From Desulfamplus sp. (GTDB taxonomy: Bacteria > Desulfobacterota > Desulfobacteria > Desulfobacterales > Desulfobacteraceae), in assembly GCA_015232555.1 (NCBI GenBank), contig JADFZJ010000022.1:1-58122 (forward strand): 58,122 nucleotides of DNA. Reading direction: 5' to 3'. The notes under the pieces were generated by a model. That model had not been told where the DNA came from. It saw only the letters and a list, made by a program, of their open reading frames with translations, and did not search any database. Every line of letters starts with the position of its first letter. Position 1 is the first letter of the stretch. Made by a program: the position numbers and the translations under genes. Positions 19,910-46,139 of the stretch are shown one piece after another.

Positions 19910-21100
19910 TCACCTGGTCATCAGATACCCAACTGCCTTTTCCAGCCCGTCTATTGAGAGTTCAAACATAGGAAAAATTTTTGATATGGCAGTAATTGTG
20001 TGTGTGTAGTTCCACATAGACTGAGGCACAGGATTGAGCCAAACAGAATGGGAGAAGGTGTTTGCAATAAACTTAAGCCTCTCAATGCTTGATTTACCGC
20101 TTCTCTCTCCGATGTGTATTGAGCCGTCAGTTGCCATAAGTTCATAGGGTGCCATGCTTGCATCACCAACCACAATAAAGCGTGTCTCAGGATCGCGTTT
20201 GATGAACTCATCAATTTTTATAGGTTTGCGGTATCTTGCTGCATCTTCCCAAACACAGTCATAGATGGTGTTGTGAAAAAAGCAGGTTTTAACCTCTTTG
20301 AACTGTGAGCGTGCATAATCAAAGAGCGTCTGAACAACCAAGATATAAGGGTCCATTGACCAGCCTCCATTATCAATGGCAAGTATGACATTGAGCCTGT
20401 CTTTCATAGACCTGTCAAATATAAGTTCAATCTCCCCGCCGTTTTTCATGGTTCTGTAGATGGTCTCATCAATATTAATCTGGTCTTTTGGTCCTGTCGG
20501 CACCATGTTTCTCAGACGCTTTAGTGCTTCACCCATCATTGCTTGAGTTAGAGGACCATGGTTGGAATAATCTTTATACCTTCTCTCACCCGCAACCTTT
20601 ACAGCGGATTTATTTCTTGATTCTCCGCCAACTCTCATGCCTCCTGGATGATACCCAGAATGACCAACTGGAGATGTCCCCCCTGTACCTATCCATTTAT
20701 TTCCACCTTCATGCCGACCTTTCTGCTCTTTTAATCTCTCTTTGAAATATTCAATCAGTTGATCTGGTGTGAGATTTGCAAGTTTTGATTCATCAATTCC
20801 CAAAGCATCTGCAAGCTGTTTTGGATTTTTCAGCCACTCATCAAGCATTGCTCTTGCAATATCATCTATTTCAAATCCATCTGTGTCAGGAAGCGGTACT
20901 CCATCAAAATGGTAGGCAAACACCTGATCGTAAAGGTCAAAGTACCGCTCACTTTTTACAAGTAAAGCTCTTGCACATGTATAAAAATCGTCTAATGAGT
21001 TGATAAGACCCATTGACATTGCTTTTTGGAGTGTAAGAAAGGAAGTAGGCGTTACAGGGATTCCAACCTCTTTTAGTTTATAAAAAAATGGTATAAACAT
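19910..21100 (-). CDS. VWA-domain protein (CoxE-like), probable MoxR ATPase partner
   Basis: The protein has 396 residues. The N-terminal half is CoxE-like (MFIPFFYKLKEVGIPVTPTSFLTLQKAM, LYDQVFAYHFDGVPLP). The C-terminal von Willebrand A domain starts NVILAIDNGGWSMDPY (about residue 240). The metal-site motif is DNGGWS rather than the canonical DxSxS, keeping the Asp and a Ser. GDASMAPYEL is also conserved. CoxE-type VWA proteins usually work with MoxR AAA+ ATPases as chaperone-like pairs; a MoxR gene lies 24 kb away at 45282. It precedes korA by 57 bp on the same strand. Confidence 0.85.
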   Translation of the reverse strand: MFIPFFYKLKEVGIPVTPTSFLTLQKAMSMGLINSLDDFYTCARALLVKSERYFDLYDQVFAYHFDGVPLPDTDGFEIDDIARAMLDEWLKNPKQLADALGIDESKLANLTPDQLIEYFKERLKEQKGRHEGGNKWIGTGGTSPVGHSGYHPGGMRVGGESRNKSAVKVAGERRYKDYSNHGPLTQAMMGEALKRLRNMVPTGPKDQINIDETIYRTMKNGGEIELIFDRSMKDRLNVILAIDNGGWSMDPYILVVQTLFDYARSQFKEVKTCFFHNTIYDCVWEDAARYRKPIKIDEFIKRDPETRFIVVGDASMAPYELMATDGSIHIGERSGKSSIERLKFIANTFSHSVWLNPVPQSMWNYTHTITAISKIFPMFELSIDGLEKAVGYLMTR

Positions 21101-21117
21101 ATAAATTATCTCTATTT

Positions 21118-21279
21118 TTATATTGTTTCTAAATTTTTCGGAGTTTTATGAATAAAAAAAACATAGATAGTCAGATATAATGAACAGACAAGAAATGAAA
21201 TATCTCTCATAACAGTCCATTGAGGGTCAACAGTTTTTTTCTTATCAATTGATTTATTCTGTTTTATATCTTCAACCAT
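21118..21279 (-). pseudogene. Remnant of a MauE/DoxX-family gene (C-terminal end only)
   Basis: The 53-codon frame from the ATG at 21279 ends in WTVMRDISFLVCSLYLTIYV, which aligns with the last ~35 residues of the intact MauE/DoxX protein at 26254-26754 (WTIMRDFSFLAASIYLTFRI, with matching phenylalanine-rich ends). The preceding ~20 residues (MVEDIKQNKSIDKKK) are unrelated and the first three membrane helices are missing. It directly follows the decayed rhodanese gene with a GGAG site over that gene's stop, so it may still be translated as a single-helix peptide. Confidence 0.75.
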
Positions 21280-21283
21280 AACC

Positions 21284-21577
21284 TTAATCTCCTGTATCTA
21301 CAGGCAGCCCAGCCTCATGCCAGAGTGACCATCCATTGACGAGAACCTTAACATTATTAAACAGACATAACGAATCTTTAATATGACCAGCAATATACTG
21401 TTCTTTAGGGCGAGCATCAATAAAAACAGCAGACTTTTGTTCAAACAAAGCTCTTGCATCTTCCAATGAAATAACAAGCGTCTCTCCTGAAGAATCGGTA
21501 AAACGTGCGTCAACAGAAAAGTCTCCAATAAGCGGTAATTTGTCAGAACGGAAGTGAATAGTTGCTCCATGAGGCAC
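21284..21577 (-). pseudogene. Internally deleted rhodanese-domain gene (decayed paralogue)
   Basis: The frame from a GTG at 21577 encodes 97 residues closely matching the membrane rhodanese at 27896-28450: VDARFTDSSGETLVISLEDA versus VDARFSDSSGESLVISLEEA, and NNVKVLVNGWSLWHEAGLP versus NNVKVLVNGWSVWQEAGLP. Two parts are gone. One is the N-terminal membrane anchor (a stop lies just upstream). The other is about 60 residues between GHIKDSL and NNVKV, which includes the catalytic YCDGDTC loop of the intact copy. It therefore cannot act as a sulfurtransferase. Confidence 0.85.
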
Positions 21578-21875
21578 TGCCTGTATTTTTTATTTACAAT
21601 GTGTAAAGAATACTGACATCTCTATAATACCTATCTCCCTATTTTTATACAGGGTATGAATCCCGCTTTAATACCAGGAATATTATTATAAACCATTTAC
21701 CACGGTACTGATTGAATATGATACTTATAACAATCCGGTTCATATTTTCATGGCATAGCTTGTGCTTTGATTTTGAAGTGTAAAGTTGTTATATCAATAC
21801 TAATTAGAGTCAGACATAAGATTGTGTCTGTCAGTTGTAATGATGAAAATAACCAATAAACAAAGGAGTATAGGA

Positions 21876-26253: not shown

Positions 26254-26754
26254 TTAAATATTCGGAGATTTGGAAAAGAAAAATATCCGAAATGTAAGAT
26301 ATATTGATGCTGCAAGAAACGAGAAATCTCTCATTATTGTCCATATCCCTGCCGGACCTTGCGTGGCATCAGTTGAGAAGCAACCACAATGAATATCAAG
26401 ACCCCTTATCTGGTTGAATATCAATGATCCGATAAATATCATCATCAGAGATGTGCTTATTACGGTTGAACCTTCAAGCCAGATTCCAGCAACAAGGGAT
26501 AAACCAATCAATAATTCTAACCAAGGCAGCACTAAAGCCGCGATATTTACCGCTGTATCTGGCAGAATCTGATAGTTAAAAACTGCCTTTGCAAATGCTT
26601 CAGGGTGCAGAATTTTATCATAGCTTGCATACATAAATACTACTCCCATTAAAATGCGTATTGAATTGAACAAAAATGTATTAAACAAGAGTGCTTTCCA
26701 TTTTGATTCTGTTTGTATTGTGGATTTACTGTTTGTAGATGAATTGGAGTTCAT
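26254..26754 (-). CDS. MauE/DoxX-family membrane protein
   Basis: The protein has 166 residues with four predicted membrane helices. Signature strings are RILMGVVFMYASYDKILHPEAFAKAVFNYQILP and LPWLELLIGLSLVAGIWLEGS, followed by RGLDIHCGCFS. MauE/DoxX proteins carry electrons or help thiol-redox maturation in the membrane; the GCGCF-like CGCF pair is conserved in the MauE group. It follows the CDF gene by 3 bp and ends the metal/thiol gene run. A decayed C-terminal copy of it exists at 21118-21279. Confidence 0.85.
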   Translation of the reverse strand: MNSNSSTNSKSTIQTESKWKALLFNTFLFNSIRILMGVVFMYASYDKILHPEAFAKAVFNYQILPDTAVNIAALVLPWLELLIGLSLVAGIWLEGSTVISTSLMMIFIGSLIFNQIRGLDIHCGCFSTDATQGPAGIWTIMRDFSFLAASIYLTFRIFFFSKSPNI

Positions 26755-26757
26755 AGA

Positions 26758-27891
26758 TTATTCTTTATTAATGGAAGGTTGAATGTTAATGGAAGAGTCA
26801 GGATTGATGAGGCTCGAATCAGTGCAGGTGCAGTTATCGTTAGAAATTCTGCCGTTACAGGACATTTCACATAAAAGTGTTCCGTTCCCACACTCCTCTG
26901 TTTCAAATTGAAGCACAGGATGGTTAATGTTAAATTTATGTTGCAGTTCATGTCTGAGCTGTCCTCCTAATTGGGAAGTATTGCTTACCAATTGGTCAGG
27001 AACAACAACATGGCAGGAAAAAGCAGTGTCGGAAGATGATATTTGCCATGCGTGGAGATAATGAACTCCAGTTACTCCGGGTACAGATTCAAGAAATGTC
27101 TGCACCTGTTCAAGAGGAACGTGAGAGGGGGTAGCATTCATCAGAACTGATACAGAATCTTTAAGCAATGACCAACTGTTCTTCAAAATAAAGATGACGA
27201 TCAGGACAGAAAGAAGAGGATCAAGCCAATACCACTCATAAAACATGAGCAGAATACCGTTTATGAGAACAACAACCGATGTCAGCAAATCCCCGACCAT
27301 GTGCAGAAAAGCACCTCGCATATTTAGGTTATGAGCAGAATCACGATGCAGCAGCAAGGCAGAAAAACCATTGCCAGCAATTCCAATTCCAGCAAGAATC
27401 ATCACAGGGATTCCGTTTACTGTCTCAGGATTAAAAAATCTGTGAACCGCATGATAAAGGATAACGCCTGAAGCACCAGTCAAAAGAAGAACATTGATCA
27501 GGGCAGCCATGATCTCTGCTCGTCTATATCCAAAAGTGTTGAAAACAGTAGCCCCTTTTTGACCAATACGAAATGCAATGTATGAGATAAGTATGGCTGT
27601 AAAGTCGCTGAAATTGTGAACAGCATCTGAAATAAGAGCTACTGAGTTTGCAATCAATCCTCCGATTATCTGTGCTACAGGAATTATAAAGTTGAGAGCT
27701 AAGGTTATAAGAAGTCTTGAGCCAGTATTCACTTCTGGATCATAGCTGTGGCTATAATGATGGTTGTGGGTATTTTCAAAATGTTGATGGTAATCTTCTT
27801 CTAAATGATTATTATCGCTTTCTTCACTTAAATAGTGAGGATGCTCTTTTTCTGAATCAGTATGATTTGAATCGTTTTTATTTGTCAGCAT
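26758..27891 (-). CDS. His-rich cation diffusion facilitator (Zn/Co/Cd-type efflux)
   Basis: The protein has 377 residues from the ATG at 27891. The frame is open further, but 27891 sits directly after the rhodanese stop. Residues ~10-55 are rich in His, Asp and Glu (NTHNHHYSHSYDPE). Six membrane helices follow, with the metal-site pairs HNFSD (helix 2) and HMVGD (helix 5), giving the HxxxD/HxxxD site typical of zinc-type CDFs. The C-terminal cytoplasmic domain has VPLEQVQTFLESVPGVTGVHYLHAWQI. The tail is unusually Cys-rich (ECGNGTLLCEMSCN, CTC), suggesting an extra thiol metal site. It exports divalent cations against protons. Flanked by the rhodanese and MauE genes. Confidence 0.92.
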   Translation of the reverse strand: MLTNKNDSNHTDSEKEHPHYLSEESDNNHLEEDYHQHFENTHNHHYSHSYDPEVNTGSRLLITLALNFIIPVAQIIGGLIANSVALISDAVHNFSDFTAILISYIAFRIGQKGATVFNTFGYRRAEIMAALINVLLLTGASGVILYHAVHRFFNPETVNGIPVMILAGIGIAGNGFSALLLHRDSAHNLNMRGAFLHMVGDLLTSVVVLINGILLMFYEWYWLDPLLSVLIVIFILKNSWSLLKDSVSVLMNATPSHVPLEQVQTFLESVPGVTGVHYLHAWQISSSDTAFSCHVVVPDQLVSNTSQLGGQLRHELQHKFNINHPVLQFETEECGNGTLLCEMSCNGRISNDNCTCTDSSLINPDSSINIQPSINKE

Positions 27892-27895
27892 GTTT

Positions 27896-28450
27896 TTATT
27901 CCCCAATCTCATTTGGCAATCCCGCCTCCTGCCATACACTCCAGCCATTGACAAGCACCTTTACATTATTAAACCCCATCTCTTTAAGAAAAAGTGCAAG
28001 TTCATGGCTCAATTCGCATGTGTCACCATCACAGTATGTTATAATAACTTTACTTTTACTACTTCCATCACCACGGTCATTATTATCTAACTGACTCTCT
28101 TCCAGCTTTGGGGCAATATCCATAAAATAGGCATCTACTTCTTGTTGAGGCAGACTTAACGCTCCTTGAATATGACCTTCATCATACTGCTCTTTTCGAC
28201 GTGCATCTAAAAATAGAGCTGTCTTGTTTTCAAACAATCTTTTTGCCTCTTCAAGTGAAATAACAAGACTCTCTCCTGAAGAATCAGAAAATCTTGCATC
28301 AACAGACCACTCTCCAATGATTGGTATGCTATCAGAACGAAAATGGTTGACTGTTAATGCAAAAATCGAAGCTAAAATAACAAAAACTGAAATTTGCCAG
28401 AAGGTCTTTTTTAAAAGGTGAGAATTTGAGTTAAAATTTGCGTTATTCAT
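27896..28450 (-). CDS. Membrane-anchored rhodanese-like sulfurtransferase
   Basis: The protein has 184 residues. One N-terminal membrane helix (~residues 15-33, TFWQISVFVILASIFALTV) anchors it, and the rhodanese domain probably faces the periplasm. Conserved parts: ALFLDARRKEQYDEGHIQGALSLP and the active loop VIITYCDGDTCELSHELALFL, with the catalytic Cys in YC and a second Cys five residues on. The final motif is NNVKVLVNGWSVWQEAGLP. An insertion rich in Asp/Ser (~105-122) precedes the catalytic strand. The gene lies 4 bp upstream of the CDF gene. It may transfer sulfane sulfur or detoxify thiophilic metals; the role is inferred from context. Confidence 0.9.
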   Translation of the reverse strand: MNNANFNSNSHLLKKTFWQISVFVILASIFALTVNHFRSDSIPIIGEWSVDARFSDSSGESLVISLEEAKRLFENKTALFLDARRKEQYDEGHIQGALSLPQQEVDAYFMDIAPKLEESQLDNNDRGDGSSKSKVIITYCDGDTCELSHELALFLKEMGFNNVKVLVNGWSVWQEAGLPNEIGE

Positions 28451-28589: not shown

Positions 28590-29114
28590 TTAAAAATCTA
28601 AATTGAATTTACCAAGATAACTTTTCAACGTCTCTCTGTTATCAGAGTTAAGCTGGGGACAATCTTCGTAACCTTTTGCACCTTCAACAACACGGGTGGC
28701 AAATACCATACAGGTTGGCTCTCCGCACTCCTTGCAGTTAGTTTTTGGCAGAAGTTTTAATATCTCCATCATTTTTGGCTGGGGCATTGCCTCATAACTT
28801 GGTGTGATCGAGTCTCTTTTTTCCCATGTGTCATTGATTTCGCGTTTTAGCCATTCAACTATTTTACGGGCTTCAGCTTCATCCTTCAAAGCATTGATGG
28901 CAATTTTTTGCGGATGTACTGTAATCAATTTACCTTGAATTTTAAATGTTACAGACACAGGCTCTTTAGTAAAAGTGAATCCTCCAAGTGAAGCATTCAA
29001 GTAAGGTATTGCCTCTGAAATATCCTGATCTAAATGGGCAAAACAGTGGACTCCAATAGAGCCTGGCATACATTTTGAGTTAAAGATTTCAAGCTGATAA
29101 CTTTCAAGTAACAT
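28590..29114 (-). CDS. Fe-S cluster-binding protein (CdhD/RnfB-like FeS domain)
   Basis: The protein has 174 residues. The N-terminal ~110 residues are an unassigned domain (GSIGVHCFAHLDQDISEAIPYLNASLGG). The C-terminal part carries the 4Fe-4S motif LPKTNCKECGEPTCMVFATRV, then YEDCP, i.e. CX2CX4CX~16C as in the FeS domain of corrinoid-protein subunits and RnfB. Proteins with this layout are commonly found beside YraQ-type permeases and arsenic genes in deltaproteobacteria, which matches its position 95 bp downstream of the permease. A possible electron carrier; the partner is unknown. AGGAGG lies 13 nt before the ATG. Confidence 0.8.
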   Translation of the reverse strand: MLLESYQLEIFNSKCMPGSIGVHCFAHLDQDISEAIPYLNASLGGFTFTKEPVSVTFKIQGKLITVHPQKIAINALKDEAEARKIVEWLKREINDTWEKRDSITPSYEAMPQPKMMEILKLLPKTNCKECGEPTCMVFATRVVEGAKGYEDCPQLNSDNRETLKSYLGKFNLDF

Positions 29115-29208
29115 AACAACTCTTTGCCTCCTGATAGTGAACTACCGCTACTTTCAAGATAGCGGGTTCAACAATTTTTAATAGCGTAAAATAATGCTGA
29201 ATTGATGA

Positions 29209-30246
29209 TTAGATGAGCATATTGAAAAGATAGCCCACAAAAAGAATTCCACACCCAACAACCCCTATAAAAACAGCAATAAGTCTTGGCTTGAGAACCT
29301 TGCGTAAAATAACCATCTCTGGCAAAGAGAGAGCAATAACAGCCATCATAAACGCAAGCACAGTCCCAAGTGCTGCACCTTTTCCAAGCAGAGCCTCAAC
29401 TACCGGAATAATACCAGCGGCATTGGAATACATCGGAATGCCTATAATTACGGCTAAAGGAACTGACCACCATGAATCCTTACCCATTATTGAAGCCATA
29501 AACTCTTCAGGAACAAATCCATGAATTCCGGCACCAACACCAATACCGATAATGACATAAATCCACACCTTGCCGACAATCTCTTTAACGGCTTCCCACC
29601 CATAGATAATGCGGTCATGCCATGAAAGTTTTTCTTCCGGAATATTAAGATCAGATGCCTTGATTGCTGTAACCCAATCCTCAATATGGTTTTCAAGATG
29701 AAGTCTTCCAATCACCCATCCTGCAACAATGGCAATTGTCAACCCTGTACCCAAGTAAATAGCAGCTACTTTCCACCCAAGCAATCCGTAAAGTAATCCA
29801 AGTGCAATTTCATTGACCATTGGGGCTGAAATGAGAAACGAGAAGGTTACACCAAGAGGGACTCCTGTAGTTACAAAACCGATAAACAGTGGCACTGCTG
29901 AACATGAACAGAAAGGGGTTACAATGCCAAGCATGGCAGCCATTATATTACCTGCAAACTCGCTCTTTCCTGAAAGAAATGCTCTTGTCTTTTCAGGTGT
30001 AAAAAAACTTCTGATTATCCCTACTCCAAACACAACAATAAAAAGAAGCATCATAACTTTTGGGGTATCATAGAGAAAAAACTCAACAGAAGCACCAAAA
30101 TGACTTCCCTGTTGTATTCCAAAAAGATTGTACGTAAGCCATGAAGCTGCGGGTAAAAGCTGCCTGTAAATCAACCACCAGATAGCAACTGCAAAAATGC
30201 CAACAGGTAGATAAAGATATTCATGTTTAATTCTTTTTTGTAACAT
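29209..30246 (-). CDS. YraQ/ArsP-type permease (UPF0718)
   Basis: The protein has 345 residues from the ATG at 30246, preferred over the GTG at 30255 because GAGG sits 8 nt upstream. About eight to nine membrane helices. Signature: [45 protein letters not shown], including the conserved FCSCSAVP that defines the family, and a second half with [23 protein letters not shown]. Members include ArsP (organoarsenical efflux) and metal or thiol-related permeases. Substrate cannot be read from sequence; the Acr3 neighbour (20-nt overlap) points to arsenic. It is followed by an Fe-S protein gene. Confidence 0.88.
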
Positions 30247-31312
30247 GACAGACACCTCTTATAGTATTCAGAGTGTATGGAAAATATTTTTTCCTGAACC
30301 ACAATGCCACATGAACAAGTCCAATCAGAACTGGAACTTCTACAAGAGGACCAATAACTGCTGCAAATGCCTCGCCAGAATCAATCCCAAAGACAGCTAC
30401 AGCCACAGCAATGGCAAGCTCAAAGTTGTTTGATGCTGCTGTAAAGCTTAAAGTTGCAGACTGTTCATAGGTTGCACCTGCTTTCATGGACATGAAAAAA
30501 GATGCTAAAAACATAACAAGAAAATAGATACAAAGGGGAATAGCTATACGGATTACATCAAACGGCAGTTGAACAATATATTCGCCTTTAAGAGAGAACA
30601 TAACAAGAATGGTAAAGAGAAGTGCAATAAGGGTCATCGGGCTGATTTTGGGTATAAAGACCTTTTCATACCAATCTTTTCCCTTTGTCTTTAGTCCGAT
30701 AATTCGGGAGATCATACCAGCAATAAAAGGAATGCCAAGATAGATAAAGACACTTTCTGCAATCTGCCCGATTGAGATATTCACAACCGCCCCCTCAAGA
30801 CCTATAAAGTTTGGTAGAACTGTAATGAAAATCCACGCATATATTGAGAAAAACAAAACCTGAAAAATAGAGTTAAATGCTACAAGTCCAGCACAATATT
30901 CAGTATCTCCGTAAGCAAGATCATTCCAGACAATCACCATTGCAATACAACGGGCAAGACCAATCATAATAAGTCCAACCATGTATTCGTGATGACCAGA
31001 TAAAAAGGTGATAGCAAGAAGGAACATCAAAATTGGTCCAACAATCCAGTTTTGAAGAAGTGAAAGCCCAAGAATTTTTACATCCTTGAACACTTCGCCA
31101 AGCTGCTCATATTTAACCTTTGCAAGAGGTGGGTACATCATAAGAATGAGACCAATTGCAATTGGAATGTTGGTTGTTCCTACCTGAAAAAAGTTAATGA
31201 AATTCTTGATGCCGGGGAAAGTATAGCCCCAGCCAACACCGACTGCCATAGCGGTAAATATCCAAAGAGTTAGAAATCTATCAAGAAATGATAATTTTTT
31301 GACTTCTGACAT
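30227..31312 (-). CDS. acr3: Arsenite efflux transporter Acr3
   Basis: The protein has 361 residues and ten predicted membrane helices. The diagnostic Acr3 segment in helix 4 is [18 protein letters not shown], with the essential Cys, and the matching helix 9 segment is [20 protein letters not shown]. It expels arsenite (and in some cases antimonite) by proton antiport. The stop overlaps the permease gene start. The ATG follows GGAG about 10 nt upstream. No arsC is in the window; an ArsR gene is 3.8 kb away on the same strand. Confidence 0.93.
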
Positions 31313-31362
31313 ATTTTTAATCTCCTGTTGTTAAGCATAAAGAATTGTTATTTTCAAAGATT

Positions 31363-31448
31363 ATCAGAATCACTGATTAATCTGATTGCACGGATTTCAC
31401 TGATTTTTTCCGTGTAATTTTTTAATCCGTTAAATAAGTGATTCTGAT
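31363..31448. repeat. 86-bp palindromic intergenic element
   Basis: ATCAGAATCACT (31363-31374) and AGTGATTCTGAT (31437-31448) are exact inverted repeats, enclosing a second inverted pair CACGGA/TCCGTG and repeated TGATT/AATCCG words. It fills most of the 175-bp gap between ccdA and acr3. It looks like a MITE-like or REP-like intergenic repeat, but no second copy is in this window. Confidence 0.6.
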
Positions 31449-31487
31449 ATTAAATATACATAATCCTAAAGAAGAAACACTTTAAAA

Positions 31488-32192
31488 TTAACTTATAAAC
31501 GGACTTGCTATAAAATAGACTCCCAATAGGCATATCATAACTCCTGCACCTTTACGAAACCATGTTCCAGCCCCCTGCCAAGTGTTGTTTTCCATGAGTT
31601 TTCGCACTGCTGCTGTAGAGCTTCCAGCAACTACAATTGGAAGACAATGACCCACAGCAAATAAAATTATCAGAACAATACCAGTTGCTATCTTTTCTTG
31701 AACTGTAATAATCGCAAGAATCGGTGCAATAAATCCAAATGTACATGAACCTGAAAGAACTCCATAAGCAAGCCCAAGCACAAAAGCACCAAATATTCCC
31801 TTGATTTTCAGGCGGTAAAGCAGGCTTCCTGACATTGAGCATTTCTCAACACCAAGCATTCCTAAGGAGATCCAGACAAGTATGCCTCCGATGACAAGCT
31901 GCCAATAATTCCCAACATCTCCAAGCATTCGCCCAAGCATGGCACAGATAATTCCCACAAGGGCAATGGTGATAAAAAGCCCGATGGTAAAGGCTCCAGC
32001 GTAAACGCCCGCTTGTTTAGGATTTACAGCTTTATCCTGTCCTCCTACATAAGCAATAATCAAAGGTATTGACGCAAGATGACAGGGACTTAGCATTACG
32101 CTTACCATTCCCCAAAGAAAACAGCCAATCGCTGCAATGGCAATTCCGCCTGACATCCATTGATTTATTGTTATGAATAGTGAATCAAGCAT
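31488..32192 (-). CDS. ccdA: CcdA-type cytochrome c biogenesis / thiol-disulfide transporter
   Basis: The protein has 234 residues with six membrane helices. The two redox cysteines occur in the pseudo-symmetric motifs VMLSPCHLASIPLIIAY (helix 1) and VLSGSCTFGFIAPILAI (helix 4), as in CcdA/DsbD beta. It passes reducing equivalents from cytoplasmic thioredoxin to periplasmic thiol proteins. The thioredoxin-like gene directly upstream (32309) encodes the likely partner. It follows that gene on the minus strand across a 116-bp gap that holds a palindrome. Confidence 0.88.
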   Translation of the reverse strand: MLDSLFITINQWMSGGIAIAAIGCFLWGMVSVMLSPCHLASIPLIIAYVGGQDKAVNPKQAGVYAGAFTIGLFITIALVGIICAMLGRMLGDVGNYWQLVIGGILVWISLGMLGVEKCSMSGSLLYRLKIKGIFGAFVLGLAYGVLSGSCTFGFIAPILAIITVQEKIATGIVLIILFAVGHCLPIVVAGSSTAAVRKLMENNTWQGAGTWFRKGAGVMICLLGVYFIASPFIS

Positions 32193-32249
32193 AAGTTCAT
32201 TATCCTTAAATCTTTTGATTGTAGCCTTTTTAGATTTAACGCAAACTAT

Positions 32250-32273
32250 AGAGACGCACGGTTGTGCGTCTCT
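32250..32273. repeat. Dispersed palindrome, copy 2
   Basis: AGAGACGCAC and GTGCGTCTCT arms around GGTT, in the gap between the thioredoxin-like gene and ccdA on the minus strand. Same arms as at 15971, 39461 and 47838. Confidence 0.85.
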
Positions 32274-32308
32274 ACGCTCATAAAAAATTTAAATAGGATA
32301 GATTAAAA

Positions 32309-32737
32309 TTATAATTTCACACCCATTTTGGTAAGCTGTGCAACTATAGCCTCCTCGGGCATAAATCCTGTGTTACGAATTACCTCTTTGCCATCTACAT
32401 CAAAAAATATTTGAGTTGGTATCGCACGAATACCAAACTTTTGAGCCTCTTCCTTGTTCTCCCACACATCAATGAATACAATTGCAGCTTTTCCAGCATA
32501 AGCTTTTTCGAGCTTTTCAAGAATAGGTGCCATCATCTTGCATGGAATACACTTTTTAGCACCCAAATCAACCATCGTAACCATTCCTTTTACTGGAACT
32601 GCTGGCGGGGTTGTCATATTTTCTGCACTGTATCCAGAACCTGTCATTGCAATGCTGAAAATACTTGCTCCTGCAATCACTGTTATTAATGCAGAAAAAA
32701 ATCTGTATCTAAATCTTTTTTTCATGATTATTTTCAT
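32309..32737 (-). CDS. Periplasmic thioredoxin-like protein
   Basis: The protein has 142 residues. An N-terminal signal or anchor (residues ~8-38, FFSALITVIAGASIFSIAMT) precedes a thioredoxin fold with active site LGAKKCIPCKMMAPILEKL (CIPC), FIDVWENKEEAQKFGIRAIPTQIFFD (cis-Pro), and FMPEEAIVAQL. It is a likely partner of CcdA, passing electrons to extracytoplasmic disulfides. An internal ATG 12 bases downstream is an alternative start. Eight bases separate it from the upstream glutaredoxin-like gene. Confidence 0.9.
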   Translation of the reverse strand: MKIIMKKRFRYRFFSALITVIAGASIFSIAMTGSGYSAENMTTPPAVPVKGMVTMVDLGAKKCIPCKMMAPILEKLEKAYAGKAAIVFIDVWENKEEAQKFGIRAIPTQIFFDVDGKEVIRNTGFMPEEAIVAQLTKMGVKL

Positions 32738-45281: not shown

Positions 45282-46139
45282 ATGACACATCAAAATGAAT
45301 TAACCATTAGGTTTTCAGGTGCTACAAAGTATGTTTTAGACAACGAACTTGCATCTATCGTCAATATCTCAATGGCTCTTGAAATGCCACTTCTTTTAAA
45401 AGGAGAACCCGGAACAGGCAAAACTATGCTTGCCCATGCAATTGCCGAAAATCTTAAAATGCCGCTGATTATACTCAATGTAAAATCAAGCATGAAACTT
45501 GTTGAGGCGCTATACCAATATGACACTCTTACACGACTTAACGATAGCCGTTTTGGTGATTCAAGCAGAGATGTGAGCAATATCAATGAATATATCAAAA
45601 TGGGGAAAATTGGTCAGGCATTTACAGCAGACCACAGGACTGTCCTTTTAATTGATGAGATTGATAAAGCAGATACAGATTTTCAAGATGACATGCTTGA
45701 TGTGCTTGACCAGATGCAGTTTGACATAATTGAAACTGACCAGACGCTCAGAGCAAAGCACAGACCTGTAATTATCATTACATCAAATGCAAAAAAAGAC
45801 CTCTCTGACCCGTTTCTTGGAAGGTGCAATTTTCACCATATAGCCTTTCCTGATCCTAAAATGATGAGAAAAATCATCTCTGTCCATTTTCCATCAATTG
45901 ACAACAGGCTTGCTGAAAATGCAGTATCAGCCTTCTATTCAATGCGAGAGCTTGACGGAATCGAGAAAAAACCCGCAACAAGAGAGCTTATCAACTGGAT
46001 ACGTGCCCTTCATGCTGATCCTGACTTCAAAGCAAAGGATATTGTAAAAGGCGAACTTCCATTTCTTGGAGTTCTTTTCAAAAAAAGCCCTGATTACGAA
46101 AGAGCACAGAACATAACATCACGGCGGAAATTCTTTTAA
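45282..46139 (+). CDS. MoxR-family AAA+ ATPase
   Basis: The protein has 285 residues. Walker A KGEPGTGKTMLAHAIAE (about 38-54), Walker B VLLIDEIDKADTDFQDDML (about 123-141), sensor 1 PVIIITSNAKKDLSDPFLGRCNFHHIAF with the arginine-finger-like region. MoxR ATPases act with VWA-domain proteins in metal-cofactor insertion or complex assembly. The VWA protein at 19910 is the plausible partner but is not adjacent. CAGGAG precedes the ATG. The gene is a single transcription unit between tatA (divergent) and amt. Confidence 0.92.
   Translation: MTHQNELTIRFSGATKYVLDNELASIVNISMALEMPLLLKGEPGTGKTMLAHAIAENLKMPLIILNVKSSMKLVEALYQYDTLTRLNDSRFGDSSRDVSNINEYIKMGKIGQAFTADHRTVLLIDEIDKADTDFQDDMLDVLDQMQFDIIETDQTLRAKHRPVIIITSNAKKDLSDPFLGRCNFHHIAFPDPKMMRKIISVHFPSIDNRLAENAVSAFYSMRELDGIEKKPATRELINWIRALHADPDFKAKDIVKGELPFLGVLFKKSPDYERAQNITSRRKFF

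Follow-up and report, generated by a model that had tools for sequence, protein, structure and literature searches.

Bacterial pseudogenes in general have been described as truncated genes that stand beside functional homologs (e.g. PMC2916853). The pair of short ORFs analysed here is likewise truncated beside functional homologs, but differs from that general picture in that neither of its two pieces carries an internal stop codon or frameshift, which leaves them open to annotation as proteins by gene callers. In the literature on MauE together with rhodanese, as judged by title, nothing related was found, and the closest systems for comparison are the homologous loci of relatives. In a homologue survey of 98 genomes of the genus, family and order (own genome included), a rhodanese match at E<=1e-8 was encoded by 87 genomes and a MauE match at E<=1e-6 by 90; some of the weaker rhodanese matches were other proteins, lying in far longer frames. 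Among the best 80 of 134 loci, taken from a species-level collection, the commonest arrangement was rhodanese-MauE with nothing between (45 loci), while rhodanese-CDF-MauE was scored in 17 loci, two of which (L118 and L125) are doubtful with gaps below 600 nt; 2 loci carried a gap of unassigned content, and for the remaining 16 no MauE was found.

Within Desulfamplus two kinds of locus were distinguished, A (rhodanese-CDF-MauE) and B (rhodanese-MauE with nothing between), and one relative, G004, carries both (A on contig C9, B on C192). The A rhodanese of G004 matches the intact rhodanese of the DNA studied here at 77-80%. Its B locus, with the two genes 42 nt apart, lies downstream of transporter genes and upstream of a gene for a PAS-nucleotide cyclase-hemerythrin protein. 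B loci were also identified in G005 (C397), where a CDF gene stands upstream of the pair and not within it, and in G007 (C11), and G008 has a further two-gene form. The B-type pairs of G004, G005 and G007 are of full length with a YCDGESC loop, have 38-45 nt between the genes and are followed by the PAS-cyclase-hemerythrin gene. The YCDGxxC sequence of these rhodaneses is taken here to be the catalytic cysteine loop. In G004, transposase-like ORFs (by eye; the first is DUF6444 by Pfam) were observed directly behind the A-type MauE gene (L037 4325-6275). A GC-rich, repeat-like stretch (CCCCTCCCC... GGGGAGGGG) was also noted by eye in G004 and G007, upstream of a 396-aa gene (L066, L067) described below and upstream of the B rhodanese (L038).

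The stretch of DNA analysed as a whole (the window; 58,122 nt, C21:1-58122) belongs to a genome of 3.82 Mb in 106 contigs, 96% complete. On its minus strand the window carries an intact A-type locus, consisting of a rhodanese gene (27896..28450) with an N-terminal hydrophobic stretch and a YCDGDTC loop, a CDF cation efflux gene (26758..27894; PF01545, TIGR01297) and a gene for a MauE/DoxX-like membrane protein (26254..26754; PF07291). At 28590-32737 it is adjoined by genes for an Fe-S protein and two transport proteins, an ArsP-type permease and an SBF/ACR3-type transporter; further neighbours were taken by eye for CcdA-like and thioredoxin-like genes. The anchored rhodanese and the MauE/DoxX-type membrane protein are encoded beside arsenic- or metal-type transporters, and these neighbours suggest that the two may have a joint role. 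In the own genome, no other close rhodanese copy was found beyond this gene and the remnant; five further matches fall in four places, at 28-39% identity.

The remnant lies about 5 kb away at 21118-21577, also on the minus strand, and is composed of a rhodanese-derived ORF (21284..21577; 97 aa, GTG start at 21577, stop codon ending at 21284) and a MauE-derived ORF (21118..21279; 53 aa, ATG at 21279, stop codon ending at 21118). The blastn comparison of 21050-21700 with the window gave three minus-strand matches to the intact genes, whose order they preserve, namely 195 nt with 75.4% identity to the intact rhodanese gene (E 2.9e-34), a second rhodanese piece of 60 nt with 78.3% identity (E 3.3e-8) and 86 nt with 73.3% identity to intact MauE (E 2.1e-4), in good agreement with the original prediction, which had matched the two pieces to these genes in order and strand. 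On the strength of these alignments the two ORFs are to be regarded as leftovers of a rhodanese-MauE gene pair, and a chance match is out.

Measured against the intact gene, the rhodanese remnant lacks 28150-27974 (177 nt), corresponding to 59 codons (101-159), with the junction at 21361..21362 on the minus strand, and what is left is the N-terminal third of the domain joined in frame to its C-terminal end. The YCDGDTC loop of the intact protein falls within these missing codons, and the 97-aa ORF contains neither a YCDGxxC loop nor the N-terminal membrane anchor of this rhodanese subgroup, both of which had been noted as lost in the original prediction. By Pfam the ORF still matches PF00581 (E 4.8e-7), but over positions 2-36 of the 102-position profile only, i.e. 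the first third. A trace of the anchor or the promoter upstream of 21577 was unconvincing in five comparisons with intact 5' ends (480, 314, 118, 79 and 24 of 500 shuffles were as good). The claim that MauE was reduced to its last helix also held, since the 53-aa ORF keeps about 29 terminal residues (from WTVMRD on), matches no Pfam or NCBIfam family, PF07291 included, and has neither the CGCF motif nor the transmembrane segments that come before this stretch. For its first 20 residues or so, eight comparisons gave no secure source and none was significant for eight tries, the best two involving the 5' ends of intact CDF, where 14 of 500 shuffles did equally well, and of intact MauE, where 38 did.

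From the in-frame state of both ends it had been proposed that the pieces were fused by deletion. The 177-nt gap is indeed in frame, but a fusion protein is ruled out, because the two ORFs are neighbours in different frames with a stop codon and 4 nt between them. The in-frame argument itself is weak, because fusion did not take place and the one measurable deletion had a 1 in 3 chance of being in frame. The DNA alignment at the deletion endpoints, where microhomology was to be looked for, showed an ambiguity of 1 nt, which is not meaningful as microhomology.

The remnant agrees in gene order with the B-type pairs and in order and strand with the A-type loci of the window and G004; it differs from the former in lacking the full-length genes, the loop, the 38-45 nt spacing and the PAS-cyclase-hemerythrin gene behind, and from the latter in that a CDF gene stands between intact genes there. 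Over the 84 shared codons its amino acid identity is 74% to the B pair of G004, 69% to that of G005 and 70% to that of G007, and over shared codons it is 70% to the intact copy. Sequence elements shared with the B-type pairs include B-like DK, PLIG, FIDARPKEQY and HEAGLPV. In the DNA and codon trees, built from 7 of the 14 rows in the shared-codon alignment, the DNA tree placed the remnant with B with a support of 84/96, and the codon model gave an lnL of -1179.9 with B as its partner; the values for A, the intact copy and G008 were -1188.5, -1189.3 and -1193.4, so that B leads A by 8.6 lnL and the intact copy alone by 9.4. The support for the remnant with B was 91/87 in an 18-row protein tree (the remnant plus 17 rows hand-picked from the 40 most like it), and the 14-row protein tree and the 41-row one containing all 40 gave the remnant no firm position among the genus rows. 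The synonymous difference (pS) between the remnant and the intact copy is 0.48, as compared with 0.29 for the intact copy against the corresponding copy of G004, and this order was reversed in 89 of 5000 codon bootstraps. Taken together, the remnant probably predates the split between the own and the G004 A copies, and it probably groups with B, moderately and not decisively.

Some features of the remnant point to the A side. The diagnostic sites are 20 A-like versus 15 B-like, the C-terminal ending and the intergenic gap of a few nt look A-like, and the synonymous difference to the B copies (0.63-0.70) is above that to the intact copy. The AU test rejected neither A (p 0.154) nor the intact copy (p 0.073) as the partner of the remnant. 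An older duplication on the A side may therefore be considered, at the stated cost in the codon model. The original prediction went further and took the remnant for a locus duplicated from the intact rhodanese-CDF-MauE set and subsequently stripped of CDF and of its functional parts. Besides the A-like sites, the lower synonymous difference and the AU result, this reading draws on the proximity of the two loci, their like order and strand, a DNA identity of 75% and the weak match of the MauE ORF start to the CDF 5' end, the best of the eight comparisons. Against it, the synonymous difference is larger than one would expect of a duplication later than the G004 split, the codon model is worse with the intact copy as partner, and most loci with MauE found among the best 80 of 134 have no CDF gene between. 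The age of the remnant relative to the split of the own and G004 A copies, together with its grouping with B, therefore makes it unlikely that the intact copy 5 kb away gave rise to it by recent duplication, and we regard a duplicate of the intact locus as improbable; of the original prediction, the decay of a gene pair is retained and its derivation from the intact locus is not. For the same reasons the claim that the CDF gene had gone from between the remnants does not follow, as G004, G005 and G007 have pairs devoid of it.

The surroundings of the remnant are rearranged. A 396-aa gene (19910..21100, minus strand) with no Pfam or NCBIfam hit follows the MauE remnant after 17 nt, and it turned up in six of the nine genus relatives. 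In four of the six (G009, G008, G001 and G002; not G004 or G007) an AAA ATPase gene lies directly upstream of it, and an outer-membrane efflux gene stands shortly downstream in G004, G007, G008 and G009 (by eye, the G007 protein being the one that was scanned). In the window, the corresponding AAA ATPase gene (45282..46139, plus strand; MoxR-like by eye) stands 24 kb from the 396-aa gene, on the opposite strand. The best own-genome match of the efflux gene (80%) is on contig C65, and that of the PAS-cyclase-hemerythrin gene of the B loci is on C10 (69% over residues 184-420). As judged by gene order, the remnant thus adjoins a rearrangement junction. A single 25-kb inversion fails as an explanation for the split pair, because the efflux gene sits on contig C65.

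Weakly in line with the original prediction, which read the pieces as remnants and not as short forms conserved in relatives, no short rhodanese or MauE form was found in the nine genus relatives, of which several are incomplete and none is at strain level, and full-length intact copies are present in relatives. The rhodanese search gave no match for G002, G003 and G006 (52-72% complete) and a weak one for G009 in a 416-aa frame, and the search with the remnant gave no match for four of the nine. A candidate second short form in G008 (C253; a 34-residue match in a 58-aa open frame, E 0.028) was rejected, since it runs antisense to a 526-aa ORF and is no rhodanese. The locus scan could not reveal short forms, because both of its search patterns fall wholly in the segment missing from the remnant. 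An independent rhodanese-MauE pair of another genome of the same family (G053; L171, C156 41500-43600) is broken in both genes by stops and frame changes, with one TGA and one TAA amid the latter; such loss therefore recurs. A rhodanese copy at a contig end (L169 956-1312; G062 C191) was observed to carry two in-frame TGA codons where homologs have tryptophan (LPWQ, NGW), in a stretch otherwise readable though poorly matched in its N-terminal half. The reading of TGA as selenocysteine in the copies of relatives was discarded, as no stop is located at the cysteine motif in nine aligned loci; in L172 the TGA lies before its ATG.

Some observations stand against decay, namely the open ORFs, the in-frame position of the sole measurable deletion, the Shine-Dalgarno-like sequence AGGAGATTAAGG preceding the MauE ORF and the unrelaxed selection. 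On the remnant branch omega was 0.08 under the B topology (fixing it at 1.0 costs 4.6 lnL; the profile drops by 1.92 lnL near 0.27, its upper limit) and 0.13 under the A topology, compared with about 0.10 elsewhere, so that the substitutions still look purifying and no relaxation was indicated by omega on this branch. Appending a neutral stretch to the branch tip left the fit no better at each of eight lengths tried; by interpolation between grid points, the loss reaches 1.92 lnL at about 0.06 changes per site for B and 0.09 for A. Inactivation is accordingly dated by these fits as recent, with no more than some 0.06-0.09 neutral changes per site. In simulations, both ORFs stayed free of stops with a probability of 0.64 at 0.02 neutral changes per site, 0.34 at 0.05 and 2% at 0.2; open frames are therefore expected of a young pseudogene and are by themselves no proof of function. 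That the ORFs are genuine small proteins under selection, one a mini-protein derived from rhodanese but inactive in sulfur transfer and the other a membrane peptide of one helix, would fit the open frames with their in-frame junction, the Shine-Dalgarno-like sequence and the low omega, but is very doubtful, given that no short form was found in the nine genus relatives, an omega that may mainly reflect time as an intact gene, the stop-free probabilities at 0.02 and 0.05 and promoter-like matches in no excess (4 versus 4.9 expected); scarcely to be expected is also its elaborated version, in which a catalytically dead rhodanese mini-protein and a one-helix MauE-derived peptide were exapted and co-translated with the downstream 396-aa gene.

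We conclude that the locus is most likely a recently inactivated rhodanese-MauE operon, an ordinary young pseudogene pair left by what was probably an old, B-like sister copy. As far as the alignments tell, both remnants are truncated relative to conserved full-length homologs and have lost functional residues, as pseudogenes do. An old paralogous, probably B-like pair would have diverged before this species and G004 separated, and would have become dispensable beside the intact A locus. Deletions would then have stripped the rhodanese of its anchor and YCDGxxC loop and reduced MauE to its last helix, and a rearrangement would have brought the 396-aa gene of another locus to its present position, the frames staying open mainly because neutral change since then has been too little. 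The parts needed for either activity are gone and an intact A set is present, and loss by redundancy is therefore the simplest reading, although redundancy as the cause, the sequence of events and the lack of a functional product are our inference. The finding suggests that these two short ORFs, though in frame and apt to be picked up by gene callers, are best taken for what a redundant operon has recently left behind, derived probably from an old sister copy and not from a fresh duplicate that lost its CDF gene; its wider importance is small.
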